The notes below the pieces were generated by a model that was not told the DNA's origin, made no database searches, and saw nothing but the letters and a program-made list of their open reading frames with translations. Positions 5,117 through 52,631 of a DNA stretch of 64,000 bases are shown one piece after another (within the stretch, counting starts at the first letter, position 1; the number at the start of each line of letters is the position of its first letter). This stretch comes from Hyphobacterium indicum (GTDB lineage: Bacteria; Pseudomonadota; Alphaproteobacteria; Caulobacterales; Maricaulaceae). Location of the stretch: assembly GCF_003129605.1 (NCBI RefSeq), contig NZ_QBDX01000004.1:992001-1056000 (forward strand). The letters run 5' to 3'. Both the position numbers and the translations under genes were made by a program.

Positions 5117-6421
5117 ATGACTGATTTTTCGCCCCGCGAGATTGTTTCCGAACTCGACCGCTTCATCATCGGTCAGAAAGACGCCAAGCGTGCCGTCGCC
5201 ATAGCGCTGCGCAATCGCTGGCGCCGCAGCCAGTTGGAACCGGGTCTGCGCGAGGAAGTCACACCGAAGAATATTCTGATGATCGGGCCGACCGGCGTCG
5301 GCAAGACCGAGATTTCGCGCCGCCTGGCCAAACTGGCCCGCGCACCCTTCCTGAAAGTCGAGGCGACCAAATTCACCGAAGTCGGTTATGTCGGCCGTGA
5401 CGTGGACCAGATTGCGCGCGATCTGGTCGAAATCGCCATCGGCATGGTGCGCGATGAAAAGCGTGAGGCGGTTCGCTCCCGCGCCCACAAGATGGCGGAA
5501 GACCGCGTGCTGAAAGCGCTGGTGGGCAATACTGCCAGCGATGCGACAAAGGACAGCTTCCGCAAGAAGCTTCGGGATGGCGAGCTTGACGACAAGGAGA
5601 TCGAGATCGATCTCGCTGATAACAGCTCGCCCTTCCAGCAACTGGATATCCCGGGCCTGCCGGGCGGGGCGGGTGTTCTCAACCTGTCAGACATGTTCGG
5701 AAAGGGGATGGGCGGAAAGTCCAAACGCATCCGCACCACCGTCAAGAAGGCCTATGAGCCCCTGATCGCCGAAGAAGCCGACAAGCTGATCGATGAAAGC
5801 GCCATCGCGGCGGAAGCCATTCGTATGGCCGAAAATGACGGCATCGTCTTCCTGGATGAAGTCGACAAGATCACTGCCCGGTCAGATGCGCGCGGGGCTG
5901 ATGTCAGCCGCGAGGGTGTGCAGCGTGACCTGCTGCCGCTGATCGAGGGCACAACGGTTTCCACCAAGCACGGGCCCGTCAAGACCGACCATATCCTCTT
6001 TATTGCCTCCGGTGCTTTTCATGTCGCCAAACCGTCGGACATGTTGCCGGAATTGCAGGGCCGCTTGCCCATCCGCGTTGAATTGCGGGCGCTGACGAAA
6101 GAGGATTTCAAACGCATCCTGACTGAGCCGGAAGCCAGCCTGATCAAGCAGTATACTGCCTTGATGGGCACCGAAGAGGTGACGCTGGACATCACCGATG
6201 ACGCCATTGACGAGATTGCAGGTCTGGCCGCGTCGGTGAATGAAAGCGTCGAGAATATCGGCGCAAGACGGCTTCAGACCGTCATGGAGAAATTGGTCGA
6301 GGACATCTCCTTCACCGCGTCTGACCGCGCCGGTGAAACCGTCCGGATTGACGGTGAATTTGTCCGCAAGACGGTCGGCGAACTTGCTGGCAATGCGGAT
6401 CTGTCGAAATTCATTCTCTAG
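5117..6421 (+). CDS. hslU: ATP-dependent protease ATPase subunit HslU
   Basis: HslU (434 aa) is the AAA+ unfoldase that feeds substrates to HslV. The Walker A motif GPTGVGKT is at residues 57-64 and the Walker B FLDEVD lies near residue 247. The central I-domain runs roughly from residue 110 to 240, and the sensor-2 motif ENIGARRL is near the C-terminus. The protein ends LSKFIL, matching the conserved C-terminal tail that inserts into HslV to activate it. Length is normal. The stop TAG (6419-6421) overlaps the stop of the convergent smr gene on the palindrome CTAG. Confidence 0.97.
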
Positions 6422-12996: not shown

Positions 12997-13020
12997 GCGC
13001 GCTATCGGTCCGGACGGGGG

Positions 13021-13035
13021 TTAATGAAGTGTTAA
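13021..13035. promoter_or_regulatory. CtrA binding site TTAA-N7-TTAA
   Basis: TTAATGAAGTGTTAA matches the full CtrA consensus with seven bases between the two TTAA halves. CtrA represses the Caulobacter origin by binding such sites. It lies 24 bases before the PPSR start, so it could also control that gene. Confidence 0.7.
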
Positions 13036-13187
13036 CAAGTCAGGGACTCGTTAACACCCTCACGGGCGAATTTGTCTCATCCCCGATCATCGGGGAAAGC
13101 CGCCCGTCTTGTCCATTCCGAATTCACAGCGGACCTGATGTGTGGACAAATGGCCGGCAGATACCGAAATTGACATCCACAGGCTTT

Positions 13188-13196
13188 TTATCCACA
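13188..13196 (+). promoter_or_regulatory. DnaA box TTATCCACA
   Basis: An exact match to the strong DnaA box consensus, bordering the AT-rich segment. Weaker boxes at 13141-13149 (minus strand, one mismatch) and 13173-13181 (two mismatches) lie within 50 bases. Confidence 0.75.
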
Positions 13197-13449
13197 CGTA
13201 ATCCCGCTACAATATAAATTAACATATTGAATAAAAGAAAGAATTAAGGTTTTCCTGTTTTGTAAACAGAAGACCATTCTGATTTTAATAAACAGTCAGG
13301 AATTGCGTGAATTCCGGGGAAAAGTCACTTCCCCACACAACCCACACACCAACGACTCTCACAATCAATAAAACAAGATTCTGTAAGAAAGGGGGAGAAG
13401 TGATTAACGCGGATTGCCTTCCGGCATATTGCCCCCTAACCCTCCGGTC

Positions 13450-20062: not shown

Positions 20063-21388
20063 ATGTCACCCGATACCATATTTGCCCTGGCCACGCCGCC
20101 GGGACGCTCGGGCGTGGCCGTGATCCGCCTTTCCGGTCCGCTGACAGTGGAAATTCTCGATTCGACGCTCGGCGGACAGCGTCCGGAACCGCGAAAAGCG
20201 GCCCTGCGCTTGATCCGTGATGCCGGCGGACAGGCCATTGATCAGGGCTTGATCCTGTTCTTCCCCGGCCCGGCCAGCTTTACCGGTGAGGATTGTGCCG
20301 AATTCCAGATTCATGGCGGCCCGGCGATCATCGAGGCTTTGCTGGATCGCCTGCTTGAGCTGGGAGGCCGGCCGGCCGAAGCGGGAGAATTCACCCGCCG
20401 CGCCTTCGAGCATGGCAAGCTGGACCTCACCGAAGCGGAAGGGCTGGCTGATCTGGTCGACGCCGAGACATCGGCCCAGCGCGAACAGGCGCTGGCGCAG
20501 ATGACCGGTGCGCTCAAATCACTTTACGAGGACTGGCGCGCCCGACTGGTGTCGATCATGGCCGCCATCGAGGGCGAGATCGACTTTCCCGACGAGGAAG
20601 GTGTGCCGGATCATCTGGCACAGACGGCCCGAACGGCGATCCAGTCCCTTCAGGATCAGATGGCGCGTCATCTGGACGACAATCATCGCGGCGAGAAAAT
20701 CCGCGACGGTTTCAACATCGCCATTATCGGCCCGCCCAATGCCGGCAAGTCGAGCCTGTTGAACGCAATGGCCGGGCGGGAGGCGGCCATTGTGACCGAT
20801 ATTCCCGGCACCACGCGGGACATTGTCGAGGTCCGCACAATTCTGGGGGGTTTTGCGGTGACTCTTGCTGACACGGCGGGACTGAGGTCGGCTCAGGACA
20901 TTGTTGAGCAAGAAGGGATAAAGCGTGCGCTGACTCGTGCTGACTCTGCGGATTTGGTGGTGGGTGTGCTGGATGGAAGTGTTGTCTGGAATCAGGAGAT
21001 GACTCGAGTCTTGGAGAAATCCCATCTTTTGGTGGTGAACAAGTCGGATCTGGACTGCAGACTGACTCTCCCTGACTCTGGTGTGGCGGTGATTCACGCT
21101 GCGATCACGGAGGGCGAGGGGATTCCGGACATTGAGCGCTGGCTTGAGTCAGAAGTGACGCAACGTCTCGGGCGGCGGGAGATGCCGGCCCTTTCCCGCG
21201 CCCGCCACCGCCGGAATGTGGAGCAGGCGTTTGCGGCGTTGACGCGGGCGGCGGACTCGCTGGATCAGCCTGAACTTGCGGGTGAGGATTTGCGCCTGGC
21301 CACGTGGTCCCTGGAGAGCCTGACCGGGCGGGTGGATATCGAGGATGTGCTGGGCGAGGTCTTTTCCCGCTTCTGTGTCGGAAAATAG
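20063..21388 (+). CDS. mnmE: tRNA modification GTPase MnmE
   Basis: MnmE (441 aa) works with MnmG to make cmnm5U at wobble uridines of some tRNAs. The N-terminal tetrahydrofolate-binding domain contains GPASFTGED. The G domain has P-loop GPPNAGKS (223-230), DTAGL (from D270) and NKSD (from N326). The protein ends with the catalytic C-terminal CVGK (C438). All functional motifs are intact. One odd feature is a DNA tract at about 20858-21150, covering the G3-G4 part of the G domain. It is visibly richer in G and T, poorer in C, and packed with GANTC sites compared with the rest of the gene. Confidence 0.96.
   Translation: MSPDTIFALATPPGRSGVAVIRLSGPLTVEILDSTLGGQRPEPRKAALRLIRDAGGQAIDQGLILFFPGPASFTGEDCAEFQIHGGPAIIEALLDRLLELGGRPAEAGEFTRRAFEHGKLDLTEAEGLADLVDAETSAQREQALAQMTGALKSLYEDWRARLVSIMAAIEGEIDFPDEEGVPDHLAQTARTAIQSLQDQMARHLDDNHRGEKIRDGFNIAIIGPPNAGKSSLLNAMAGREAAIVTDIPGTTRDIVEVRTILGGFAVTLADTAGLRSAQDIVEQEGIKRALTRADSADLVVGVLDGSVVWNQEMTRVLEKSHLLVVNKSDLDCRLTLPDSGVAVIHAAITEGEGIPDIERWLESEVTQRLGRREMPALSRARHRRNVEQAFAALTRAADSLDQPELAGEDLRLATWSLESLTGRVDIEDVLGEVFSRFCVGK
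20860..21258. other. Cluster of 12 GANTC (CcrM-type) sites within mnmE
   Basis: GANTC sites begin at 20860, 20932, 20942, 20989, 21001, 21006, 21064, 21074, 21091, 21121, 21146 and 21254, and one more at 21425 lies between parS and mnmG. That is 12 in 399 bp, while the preceding 800 bp of mnmE contain one (20159). CcrM methylates GANTC in related alphaproteobacteria. Whether the cluster has a role is inference. Confidence 0.6.
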
Positions 21389-21392
21389 CTTT

Positions 21393-21410
21393 GTGTTCCA
21401 CGTGGAACAC
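21393..21410. promoter_or_regulatory. parS centromere site 1
   Basis: GTGTTCCACGTGGAACAC is a perfect 18-bp palindrome matching the bacterial parS consensus (core GTTNCACGTGNAAC). It lies 4 bases after the mnmE stop and 67 bases before mnmG. ParB, encoded 3.4 kb downstream, should load here as a CTP clamp. Confidence 0.93.
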
Positions 21411-21476
21411 GGCCCCCTCCCCTCGACTCCGGCGTGCGGAGACATTACATAGCGCGCCCCTGATGGAGTTGATGCG

Positions 21477-23339
21477 ATGACCTCGAAATGGGACGTCATC
21501 ATTATTGGTGGTGGCCATGCCGGCTGCGAAGCGGCAGCGGCGAGCGCACGCTTGGGCGCGCGCACGCTCCTGCTCACCCACAATCCCGGGACAATCGGCG
21601 AAATGTCCTGCAATCCGGCGATTGGCGGTCTCGGCAAGGGGCATCTGGTCCGCGAAATCGACGCCATGGACGGCATTATGGGCCGGATCGCAGATGCCTC
21701 CGGCATCCAGTTCCGCCTGTTGAACCGCTCCAAGGGTCCGGCTGTACGCGGCCCCCGCACCCAGTCTGACCGGCGGCTCTATCGGGAAGCCATGCAGGCC
21801 GAGCTCGCGGCAACACCCGGCCTGACCATTGAGGCGGCCGCCATCGAGGATCTGATGGTTGAGGACAGCGGCCGGGTGACGGGCGTGATCGCTGCGGATG
21901 GCCGGCGCTGGCCCTGTCAGGCCGTGGTTCTGACCACTGGCACCTTCCTCAAAGGCGTTATCCATCGCGGACTGGAACGCACACCGGCGGGCCGCTTCGG
22001 GGAAAAGCCGGCCATCGGCCTGTCCGACCGGCTCTACGGGCTGGGTTTCCGGATGGGCCGTTTGAAAACGGGAACACCTGCCCGGCTCAAGGGGTCGACC
22101 ATCAACTGGTCAGCACTGGAACGCCAGCCGGCGGACGAAACCCCTTTGCCCTTCTCCTTTCTGACGGACCGGATTTCGGTCCCACAGATCGAATGCGGTA
22201 TTACCCACACGACACCGGAAACCCACCGCATTATTGCCGAAAACCTGGATCAGTCCGCCGTCTATAGCGGTGGCATTTCAGGCCGGGGCCCCCGTTATTG
22301 CCCGTCCATAGAAGACAAGATCCATCGCTTCGCCGACAAGGACAGTCACCAGATTTTCCTCGAACCGGAGGGGCTGGACACAGATCTGGTCTATCCCAAT
22401 GGCATATCGACCTCTTTGCCCGATGACGTGCAATTGCAATTCCTGCGTACCATTCCCGGTTTGGAGACTGTCGAGGTCGCGCGCTATGGCTATGCCATTG
22501 AATATGACTATGTCGATCCGCGCGAATTGACGGCGGACCTCCAGGTCCGCGCGGCCCCCGGCCTGTATCTCGCCGGCCAGATCAATGGCACGACCGGATA
22601 TGAGGAAGCGGCCGCCCAGGGTTTGATGGCCGGCCTCAATGCAGCGCGCGCCGCACATCAGGAAGATCCCGTCATTCTGAGTCGGTCTGACGCCTATATC
22701 GGCGTGTTGATCGATGACCTCGTGACTCGAGGTGTCAGTGAGCCTTATCGCATGTTCACCAGCCGGGCTGAATACCGATTGTCCCTGCGCGCAGACAATG
22801 CGGATCAGCGCTTGACTCCTCTTGCCATCAGCCTCGGAGGTGTGTCCCCCGAGCGCACGCAGCGCTATGCGCGCAAGGCATCCCGTCTGGACGCCGGACG
22901 GGACGTGATCAGCCGACTCTCACTGACACCGAAAGAAGCCGGATCCGTGGGCATTGCCGTCAATCAGGACGGACGCCGGCGGACGGCCAGGGAATTGCTC
23001 AGCTATCCGGAGGTCGGCTGGCCGCAGATCGTGACCGCCTTTCCGGAGCTGTCTGAAGTTGACCCGGGGATCGGAGAGCAATTGGCCATCGAGGCCATCT
23101 ACGCGAATTACCTGCAGCGGCAGGATGCCGACATACTGGCCTTCCGGCGCGACGAAGCCATCACCCTGCCGGCCGGCATCGATTTCGATCTGATCGGCGG
23201 TCTGTCTTCGGAAGCCCGGGAAAAGCTGAAAGCTGCCCGCCCGGCCACACTTGGCCAGGCAAGCCGCATTGAAGGTGTCACGCCGGGCGCGGTCACCGCG
23301 ATCCTGGCCCATATCAAATCTGCCCGGCGGGCCGGCTAG
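21477..23339 (+). CDS. mnmG: tRNA uridine-5-carboxymethylaminomethyl enzyme MnmG (GidA)
   Basis: MnmG (620 aa) is the FAD-dependent partner of MnmE in wobble-uridine modification. The N-terminal dinucleotide-binding motif [10 protein letters not shown] is at residues 12-21. The family signatures GPKGxAVRGPR-type ([14 protein letters not shown]) and [17 protein letters not shown] are present, as is the C-terminal helical MnmE-binding region. Length is standard. The 88-bp gap before it contains parS site 1, so its promoter region and a centromere site coincide. It is followed by rsmG after one base. Confidence 0.97.
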
Positions 23340-23340
23340 C

Positions 23341-23991
23341 ATGGGGTTCGGGCCAGAAGAGTTCCGGAAAGCCACCGGTGTTTCACGTGAAACACTCGCG
23401 GCCTTCACCATCTGGCATGACATGCTGGCCGAGGCCAACACGGCCACCAATCTGGTCGGGCGCTCGACCATGGACGATTTCTGGAAACGTCATGCCCTCG
23501 ACGGTTTCCAGCTCATCGATCACGCCCCGCAGGACGGGCTGTGCTGGCTCGACCTTGGGGCGGGCGCAGGCATCCCCGGCCTGGCACTGGCGCTGGCGAT
23601 GAAAGACCGCGGCCTGACGGCATCCAAACTGGTCATGGTCGAATCGGTCGGCAAGAAGGCGCGATTCGTTCAGGCCACGATCGATGCCACGGGCGCGCCG
23701 GCCCGCATGGAAAACTGCCGTGTTGAAGCCTTGGATCAGACGGAAAAATTCGATGTCATTACGGCCCGCGCCGTCGCTGCACTCGATAAATTGCTCTGGT
23801 ATGCCTATCCACTGTTGAAAACCGGCGGAATCTGCCTCTTTCCCAAGGGGCAGCGCTACCGTCAGGAATTGACGGATGCCAATAAATACTGGACCTTCGA
23901 CGCAGATGTTCGGCCAAGTCAAACCAGTGAGGAAGGAGTCATACTCCATATTTCCTCCCTCCGGCCGAAGAAGGGAAACCGGCATGCCTGA
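23341..23991 (+). CDS. rsmG: 16S rRNA (guanine527-N7) methyltransferase RsmG
   Basis: RsmG/GidB (216 aa) methylates G527 of 16S rRNA. The SAM-binding loop DLGAGAGIPGLALAL and the ESVGKKARFVQ segment identify it, followed by VITARAVAALDKLL. The ATG at 23341 directly follows the mnmG stop; an in-frame start 90 bases upstream lies within mnmG and is rejected. The gene contains parS site 2 in its coding sequence, specifying GVSRETL. It overlaps parA by 8 bases, so mnmG-rsmG-parA-parB is a tightly packed run. Confidence 0.95.
   Translation: MGFGPEEFRKATGVSRETLAAFTIWHDMLAEANTATNLVGRSTMDDFWKRHALDGFQLIDHAPQDGLCWLDLGAGAGIPGLALALAMKDRGLTASKLVMVESVGKKARFVQATIDATGAPARMENCRVEALDQTEKFDVITARAVAALDKLLWYAYPLLKTGGICLFPKGQRYRQELTDANKYWTFDADVRPSQTSEEGVILHISSLRPKKGNRHA
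23378..23395. promoter_or_regulatory. parS centromere site 2, inside rsmG
   Basis: GTGTTTCACGTGAAACAC is a perfect 18-bp palindrome with the classical TTTCACGTGAAA parS core. It is 38 bases into rsmG and about 2 kb right of site 1. The coding sequence is constrained to read VSRET here, as in other rsmG genes that host parS. Confidence 0.93.
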
Positions 23992-24826
23992 GCTTCACCG
24001 CGTCAAAGCGCCCAAAGTGATCGCCATCGCTAATCAGAAAGGCGGGGTCGGCAAGACCACCACAACGATCAATCTGGGAACGGCGCTGGCCGCGATCGGC
24101 AAGCAGGTCGTGATTCTGGATATAGACCCGCAGGGCAATGCCTCCACAGGTCTCGGCGTACCGCCAGCTGACCGCAAGATCACGACCTATGATGTGCTGG
24201 TGGGAGAGCAGCCACTGGAGCGGGCCCTGGTCGATACGCTCGTCCCCGGCCTGTCGCTGGCCCCCTCCGACCCGGATCTGTCCGGGGCCGAACTGGAGCT
24301 CGCTTCGGCACCGCGCCGGTCGTACCGCATGCGGCATGCCATCGACCGGCTCCGCAAACGCCTGAGCGATGCAAGTCAGCATTGCGATTATGTCCTGATT
24401 GACTGCCCGCCCTCGCTCAATCTGTTGACGGTCAATGCATTGACATCTGCTGACTCTGTGCTGGTGCCGTTACAGTGCGAATTCTTTGCGCTCGAGGGTC
24501 TCAGCCAGTTGATGCGCACCATTGATCTCGTCCGCACCAACCTCAATCCACGGCTCGCCGTCCAGGGCGTCGTTCTGACCATGTTCGACAGCCGCAACAA
24601 TCTCTCCGGTCAGGTCGAGGCCGATGTGCGCGAACATTTCGGGGATCAGGTCTACAAGACCCGCATTCCGCGCAATGTCCGGGTCTCGGAGGCGCCCTCC
24701 TTCGGCAAGCCGGCCCTGCTCTATGATCTCAACTGCTCCGGCAGTCAGGCCTATATCGCGCTTGCAAAAGAAATCGTCCAGCAAGAAAAACGTCAAAGTA
24801 TTGAAAACGAAAGAGTTCCGGCATGA
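23984..24826 (+). CDS. parA: Chromosome partitioning ATPase ParA
   Basis: ParA (280 aa) is the nucleoid-bound ATPase that moves ParB-parS complexes. The deviant Walker A KGGVGKT is at residues 19-25, with VVILDIDPQGNAS (Walker A') after it and YVLIDCPPSLNLLT (Walker B) further on. It lacks the long N-terminal HTH of plasmid P1-type ParA, as expected for the chromosomal Soj type. I start at the ATG at 23984, with AGAAGGGAA upstream and an 8-base overlap with rsmG. It overlaps parB by 4 bases. Confidence 0.97.
   Translation: MPELHRVKAPKVIAIANQKGGVGKTTTTINLGTALAAIGKQVVILDIDPQGNASTGLGVPPADRKITTYDVLVGEQPLERALVDTLVPGLSLAPSDPDLSGAELELASAPRRSYRMRHAIDRLRKRLSDASQHCDYVLIDCPPSLNLLTVNALTSADSVLVPLQCEFFALEGLSQLMRTIDLVRTNLNPRLAVQGVVLTMFDSRNNLSGQVEADVREHFGDQVYKTRIPRNVRVSEAPSFGKPALLYDLNCSGSQAYIALAKEIVQQEKRQSIENERVPA

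Positions 24827-52555: not shown

Positions 52556-52631
<76 letters not shown>

Follow-up and report, generated by a model that had tools for sequence, protein, structure and literature searches.

The window, i.e., the whole 64-kb stretch of DNA that was analysed, contains 166 GANTC sites, and a dense group of them lies inside a gene that we take to be mnmE, in the part of its product that is presumably the G domain. Below, G000 is the genome of the window, and the array carriers are G000, G005, G006, G007, G004, and G001. The name gidA is likewise our assumption, as is the pattern with which parS was searched for. The features of the locus, with coordinates in the window, are:

12997..13449, no strand: spacer before hemE, with 3 GANTC; presumably the replication origin, by analogy with Caulobacter
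20063..21388, plus strand: mnmE, an open reading frame of 441 aa with matches in relatives, host of the mnmE array, frame intact
20859..21258, plus strand: mnmE array, located by motif positions, in excess over the codon null and conserved in relatives
21394..21409, no strand: parS1, TGTTCCACGTGGAACA, in the mnmE-gidA spacer, ~136 bp past the last GANTC of the mnmE array
21477..23339, plus strand: gidA (mnmG), an open reading frame of 620 aa
22679..22919, plus strand: gidA array, with TGACTC at 22723 and 22813, which all six carriers share, and GANTC at 22679 and 22915
23379..23394, no strand: parS2, TGTTTCACGTGAAACA, near the gidB start, ~460 bp past the gidA array
23936..23941, minus strand: TGACTC near the gidB end, in 5 of 6 carriers, absent from G001
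24451..24456, plus strand: TGACTC in parA, in 5 of 6 carriers, absent from G001

The twelve GANTC sites of the mnmE array start at 20860, 20932, 20942, 20989, 21001, 21006, 21064, 21074, 21091, 21121, 21146, and 21254, and a thirteenth, at 21425, lies beyond it. The recount bears out the twelve sites in 20860-21258, plus the one at 21425, from which the original prediction started, and its distance of ~135 bp between the tract and parS1 agrees with the ~136 bp measured, but the single site that it gave for the preceding 800 bp is in fact two (20159 and 20308). TGACTC stands at 20859, 20931, 20941, 21000, 21063, and 21073 in the sense orientation and at 21146 on the minus strand (read as GAGTCA), so that 7 of 12 GANTC have this form on either strand; two more are TGATTC (20989, read as GAATCA, and 21090), and the remaining sites (21006, 21121, and 21254) have another form. 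Two direct pairs of TGACTC, 20931/20941 and 21063/21073, are spaced at 10 bp, and two such pairs recur in mnmE of G000, G005, G006, G007, and G004 and in gidA of G001; pairs at a helical turn are conserved, yet there are only about two per array. In 864 kb of G000 there are three 10-bp GA[CG]TC pairs, two in the mnmE array and one elsewhere, and the spacing alone is not unique because 10-bp GANTC pairs of any form occur five times elsewhere in this sample. TGACTC pairs with a 10-bp spacing also occur in L121 and L147 of the sample, at the starts of genes whose translations we take to be desaturase-like and RND-pump-like, and these look like chance. A strong local GC skew (up to 0.45) was also seen at 20820-21060 of the window, and the codons of the tract are shifted to T-ending ones, as they are in G005, G006, G007, and G004; TGACTC itself explains neither.

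The sample of G000 in which the cluster was ranked comprised the window and 40 stretches of 20 kb each, 864 kb in all or 31% of the 2.79-Mb genome, with GANTC at 2.19/kb as against 3.56/kb expected from composition. Its densest 399-bp stretch was the mnmE array with 12 sites, the runner-up having 7, and the 399-bp maxima of seven control words of the same build ranged from 6 to 10, the latter reached by CTNAG. In the congener G007, sampled over 41 stretches (820 kb, 30% of 2.69 Mb), the orthologous array was again at the top, with 10 GANTC as compared to 6 for the next stretch. The cluster thus ranks first in the sampled part of both genomes, and similar clusters, which the original prediction had said would speak against it if common, were not common there. 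Across 60 regions of up to 20 kb, a GANTC cluster with −log10P of at least 4 was found in seven, at least four of them array carriers, and each of the seven control words reached this value in 0 of 60. The hexamer TGACTC occurs at 2.6 per 20 kb in G000 (one per 7.8 kb) and at 2.25 per 20 kb in G007, and it is not raised across the sample at large (122 seen vs. 113 expected under a Markov model). A third cluster of three TGACTC is present in the G007 sample (L235).

The sites are more frequent than the encoded protein demands. Under a null that draws synonymous codons at the usage of the gene itself, codons 260-365 of G000 mnmE have 11 GANTC against a mean of 3.9, with 0 of 2,000 draws reaching 11; the excess is present in 6 of 6 carriers (P of 0.002 or less), and a stricter shuffle within the tract gave P values from 0 to 0.018. 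The same synonymous null yielded no GANTC excess in L006 (G021) or L019 (G002). With multi-gene codon usage, GANTC was in excess over the whole of mnmE in G000, G006, G007, and G004, and G001 showed none (8 vs. 6.5, P = 0.26), but TGACTC in G001 mnmE is in excess (3 vs. 0.31, P = 0.004). Indeed, when the sites are divided by form, TGAYTC hexamers number 6-9 across the six carriers against 0.3-1.75 expected, with none of 5,000 draws as high, whereas GANTC of other forms number 1-2 and fall below their mean expectation of 2.2-3.8 in all six. TGACTC is the top 6-mer over the mnmE tracts of G000, G007, G004, and G001 (23 vs. ~1.2 expected), and its one-letter neighbours are within about one count of expectation or lower, save TGATTC (8 vs. 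3.2) and TGACAC (4 vs. 1.85, its conserved copy encoding DT of DTAG). The share of TGAYTC among GANTC is 10-24% in the background, depending on codon frame or spacer, as compared to 48 of 62 in the arrays. A scan that presupposed no GANTC, in which every 6-mer was scored in 39 half-overlapping windows over six genes, likewise placed TGACTC first in mnmE (score 40.6; best unrelated word 10.5) and again first in gidA codons 364-468 (9 vs. 0.37, score 15.7), and the word occupies both non-stop codon frames and both strands. The division by form is decisive: the excess is one of TGACTC plus some TGATTC, not of GANTC in general, and one specific word is repeated beyond the codon null, as a binding array would have it.

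These results also bear on a rival in which the sites arose incidentally, through evolution of the MnmE G domain as a protein or through codon drift. Amino acids do supply part of the excess, as the null given the carriers' own proteins is 3.6-4.4 GANTC against 0.4 and 1.1 in two outgroups. However, the synonymous null is rejected in every one of the six carriers, the word spans both frames and strands, and it recurs in gidA, so we regard this rival as extremely improbable. An overlapping open reading frame was considered separately and rejected, as no other frame is free of stops across the tract in all of the carriers.

Matches to mnmE were found in 99 of 99 relatives' genomes, some of them partial or to other GTPases, and 80 named loci entered the comparison. 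Five relatives have the array, with 8 to 11 GANTC per 399 bp, at MnmE amino acid identities of 95% (G005), 87% (G006), 78% (G007), 67% (G004), and 63% (G001). Among the genes listed, with minus-strand loci left aside, 27 from non-carriers (including G002 and G021) have 0 to 5 GANTC per whole gene, and in all 110 loci no non-carrier exceeds 4 GANTC in any 399-bp stretch within mnmE; G003, of the same genus, is 69% complete and did not yield a full mnmE. In a tree of 21 genomes built from five proteins, with MnmE minus the tract, G002 is sister to the six carriers and G001 joins the remaining carriers with a support of 0.94. The history of the array is best explained by a single gain with no loss, which fits this tree. 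The array is kept in all six sampled genomes of one clade while single sites turn over: six core sites are present in 5 of 5 gap-free species, and the union of 17 positions indicates turnover. In G004, 7 of 11 sites are retained, as compared to 24% for the remaining words of the tract (Fisher P = 0.007; 0.02 for G007, 0.03 for G006, and 0.11 for G005); because carriers share ancestry, effective sample sizes are below these raw counts. The original prediction had named loss of the sites in sister species as grounds for abandoning it, and here the answer is divided, for they are kept within the clade of six and gone in G002, the next sister. In MnmE, the three outgroups shown have VIL where the carriers shown have VTL, and ARAE(D/E) gives way to TRADS in these carriers except G001; these residue changes appear to have made room for sites. 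The original prediction is supported in so far as a real DNA-level element lies beside parS, near the likely origin, and is kept beyond protein needs by the codon null and the conservation; the observation as a whole holds, and more strongly than first claimed.

A second array of the same word is found in gidA, and the two arrays stop roughly 140-460 bp upstream of parS1 and parS2, one array per parS. Besides the seven mnmE copies given above, from 20859 to 21146, the 3.6-kb interval spanning both parS holds TGACTC in G000 at 22723, 22813, 23936 (minus strand), and 24451. This interval accounts for 11 of the 12 TGACTC of the fetched region in G000, 11 of 13 in G005, 10 of 13 in G006, 11 of 11 in G007, 10 of 11 in G004, and 8 of 10 in G001, and G002 has 0 of 0 in 20 kb. 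By gene, the five carriers tested have 7, 6, 7, 6, and 3 copies in mnmE and 2, 2, 2, 2, and 5 in gidA; gidB and parA have one each in four carriers and none in G001, rho and parB have none in five, hemE none in four, and polA 0, 1, 0, and 0 in four. The outgroups G002, G021, and G015 have no TGACTC in the genes tested, and G053 has one, in gidB. Single-genome P values for gidA TGACTC are 0.064, 0.054, 0.114, 0.020, and <0.002 in the five carriers, with much of the signal from G001, which has 3 copies in mnmE and 5 in gidA, together with two 10-bp GACTC pairs in gidA; weight has therefore moved between the two arrays. These comparisons show the tract to be part of a DNA-level TGACTC element, with some TGATTC, whose copies lie within mnmE and gidA, each array a few hundred bp ahead of its parS (parS1 and parS2, respectively). 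On the origin side, GC skew in G007 rises from about −0.045 to ~0 across the counterpart of the origin region, and L151 (G001) has two TGACTC within its presumed origin, separated by 34 bp and lying ~8.1 kb upstream of the mnmE start.

The orientation of the copies raises the alternative that UGACUC in the mnmE-gidA transcript is the target of an RNA-binding protein or small RNA. There are six sense copies to 1, 1, and 0 antisense copies in the tracts of G000, G007, and G004 (2 and 1 in G001), where the null is roughly even. Yet antisense copies have been kept at 21146 (3 species) and 23936 (5 species), RNAalifold on six sequences gave an unfavourable covariation term of +2.45 with two-sided change in 12 of 66 predicted pairs, and Rfam had no match in the tract at gathering score, so an RNA target seems improbable to us. 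The structured-RNA candidate was rejected on the net covariation. At the same score, the 5 sources searched with Rfam gave one tRNA, at 52559-52631 of the window. Less probable still is a GcrA-dependent or other internal promoter for gidA-gidB-parAB, which we consider very unlikely. In its favour, GANTC sites in the repABC promoter matter for replication and GcrA activates that promoter, according to the available part of PMC11514494. Against it, a consensus scan of 20700-21600 for promoters of the sigma-70 type found none on the plus strand and one on the minus strand, and a promoter requires one or two sites, not arrays in two genes.

The original prediction treated the tract as a cluster of CcrM sites as such, with a use in timing by methylation. 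In this reading, the cluster stays in the hemimethylated state once it has been copied and attracts GcrA or a different m6A reader, serving as a replication timer or sink. The genome encodes GcrA (E = 1.4e-53) and a RAMA-domain protein (E = 1.7e-19) that is probably CcrM, and because a probable CcrM is encoded, the A of each TGACTC is probably methylated. The array region of G007 is the GANTC-densest of its 41 stretches of 20 kb (3.40/kb; mean 2.05), and in Parvibaculum, too, GANTC arrays lie next to parS, with other flanking letters. Origin-near GANTC remain hemimethylated longest in Caulobacter, as stated in the portion of PMC3973325 covered here. Nevertheless, the excess is confined to TGACTC and TGATTC, so N and flanks matter, and a reader of methylated GANTC alone is disfavoured because it would be indifferent to both. 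The motif published for GcrA, YGAKTCK (PMC7987155, in part), fits 1 of 12 array sites in the window and 7 of 62 over six arrays, against a background of 18.7% of 1,725, and is thus not enriched. General retargeting of GcrA is unlikely because YGAKTCK fits 1 of 12 and TGACTC is not raised sample-wide, and we do not favour GcrA as the array reader; that paper nevertheless reports more than 400 GcrA peaks of unclear cause in coding regions, so that GcrA stays a candidate. GANTC outside the array has retentions of 0.44, 0.33, and 0.52 in three species against controls of 0.31-0.42, 0.09-0.35, and 0.32-0.61, i.e., near the better controls and not clearly more. We thus consider reading of GANTC methylation by GcrA or a similar protein unlikely; what stands of the timing proposal is a real element by parS near the origin, and what falls is GANTC as the selected word. 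A reader that needs TGACTC plus its m6A is possible.

The TGACTC arrays are, we think, somewhat more probably than otherwise a clade-specific binding array for a sequence-specific protein at the centromere/origin region, because exact copies of one word repeat in both non-stop frames, on both strands, and in two genes close to parS. The sense bias is a point against this reading, as a double-stranded reader has no need of it: by our count, 12 of the 16 distinct TGACTC in the 3.6-kb interval are in the sense orientation. A putative protein would bind the arrays beside parS, and pairs at 10 bp, one helical turn, would set neighbouring protomers on one face of the DNA; the bound array could help to compact or label parS DNA that has just been replicated, or limit how far ParB spreads. 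It may be speculated that binding is tuned by methylation state after replication, which is possible because every TGACTC contains GACTC and is also a CcrM target. An undescribed centromere-flanking system, in which a protein reads TGACTC arrays upstream of each chromosomal parS, CcrM methylation gates its binding, and origin segregation is coupled to the replication status of the parS region, with the arrays of this clade and of Parvibaculum having evolved separately with different flanks, is a bolder extension that we would call doubtful. Bacterial centromeres are usually described as consisting of parS and ParB, and a conserved array of a second word, in coding DNA beside each parS, points to another DNA-binding player. 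The array also defines the exact synonymous sites that are open to recoding, and it is a caution for GANTC counting, as selection on a longer word can lie behind a cluster of CcrM targets. If methylation gates the array, a SeqA-like reader in alphaproteobacteria becomes a directly testable question.

Parallel loci were found by searching for GANTC, and they are related within groups. Ten Parvibaculum-type loci (L055, L061, L066, L067, L068, L069, L072, L081, L088, and L105), picked by record title, have arrays in the mnmE-gidA spacer and gidB start adjoining parS, with GANTC at 20.8/kb within 60 bp of parS, 12.2/kb at 60-150 bp, and 0.85/kb beyond 2 kb, while seven control words rise at most ~2.4-fold; in every one of the ten, at least 4 GANTC accompany a parS. 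An eleventh, L110 (Parvibaculaceae), was left out of these figures and has 1 and 3 GANTC within 150 bp of its parS. The Parvibaculum-type arrays resemble those of this clade in having GANTC packed beside parS, but they lie mostly in the spacer and gidB start, and most of their sites are GATTC flanked by G or C, with TGATTC making up at least 12 of 80. A DnaA-box-like TGTGGATAA also occurs in this spacer in L066 and L072. In another lineage, L046 (Hyphomonadaceae) has seven GANTC within 150 bp of a spacer parS at about 5230-5515, and a second, degenerate parS. Among 399 parS in 135 loci, a count of at least 5 GANTC within 150 bp is reached by 2.3%, as compared to 0.4% of random positions, and most of these parS belong to Parvibaculum-type loci and L046. 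GANTC sites also lie in or next to the presumed origin (hemE spacer) of Caulobacterales: L170 (G063) has 12, three of the form TGTGACTC, L165 (G010) has 8, and L169 (G060) has 6. We treat the Parvibaculum-type, L046, and hemE-spacer loci as leads, not proof of a shared mechanism. An exact parS is present in 36 of 40 class regions, with GANTC within 150 bp up ~2-fold and TGNCA up to 1.7-fold, and sixteen Brevundimonas loci have no GANTC rise within 60 bp of parS. We do not claim a class-wide parS-GANTC rule, as the control TGNCA rises too, parS is often in spacers, which are richer in GANTC anyway, and Brevundimonas is flat.

A search of open-licence papers yielded nothing on TGACTC or chromosomal parS arrays; PMC8116508 and PMC3667746, covered in part, provide background only. 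Intergenic DNA is richer in GANTC than coding DNA, and several sites lie in the Caulobacter origin (PMC3973325, available text). On pAMI4, five GANTC lie ~500 bp from 3parS, for which the authors propose an unknown type of regulation (PMC9040568, in part). This GANTC-rich stretch near parS is like the mnmE array, but it belongs to a repABC megaplasmid and lies near an intergenic locus, and the text covered mentions no hexamer preference or conservation. The repABC loci are rich in GANTC, and methylation of their CcrM targets was shown to matter in Agrobacterium (PMC11514494 and PMC6090056, as far as covered). They share with our arrays an excess of CcrM targets at replication/partition loci, but the sites described in those portions are at promoter or origin and involve GcrA, whereas the arrays here are in coding DNA and of one hexamer. 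In E. coli, clusters of GATC at oriC are read by SeqA, of which we know no counterpart in this class. SeqA also figures in the abstract of PMC2865523. Dense methylase sites near the origin, which SeqA-type sequestration entails, are found here as well, and a methylation reader could use them, but the motif of these arrays differs in being asymmetric and longer than the methylase site.
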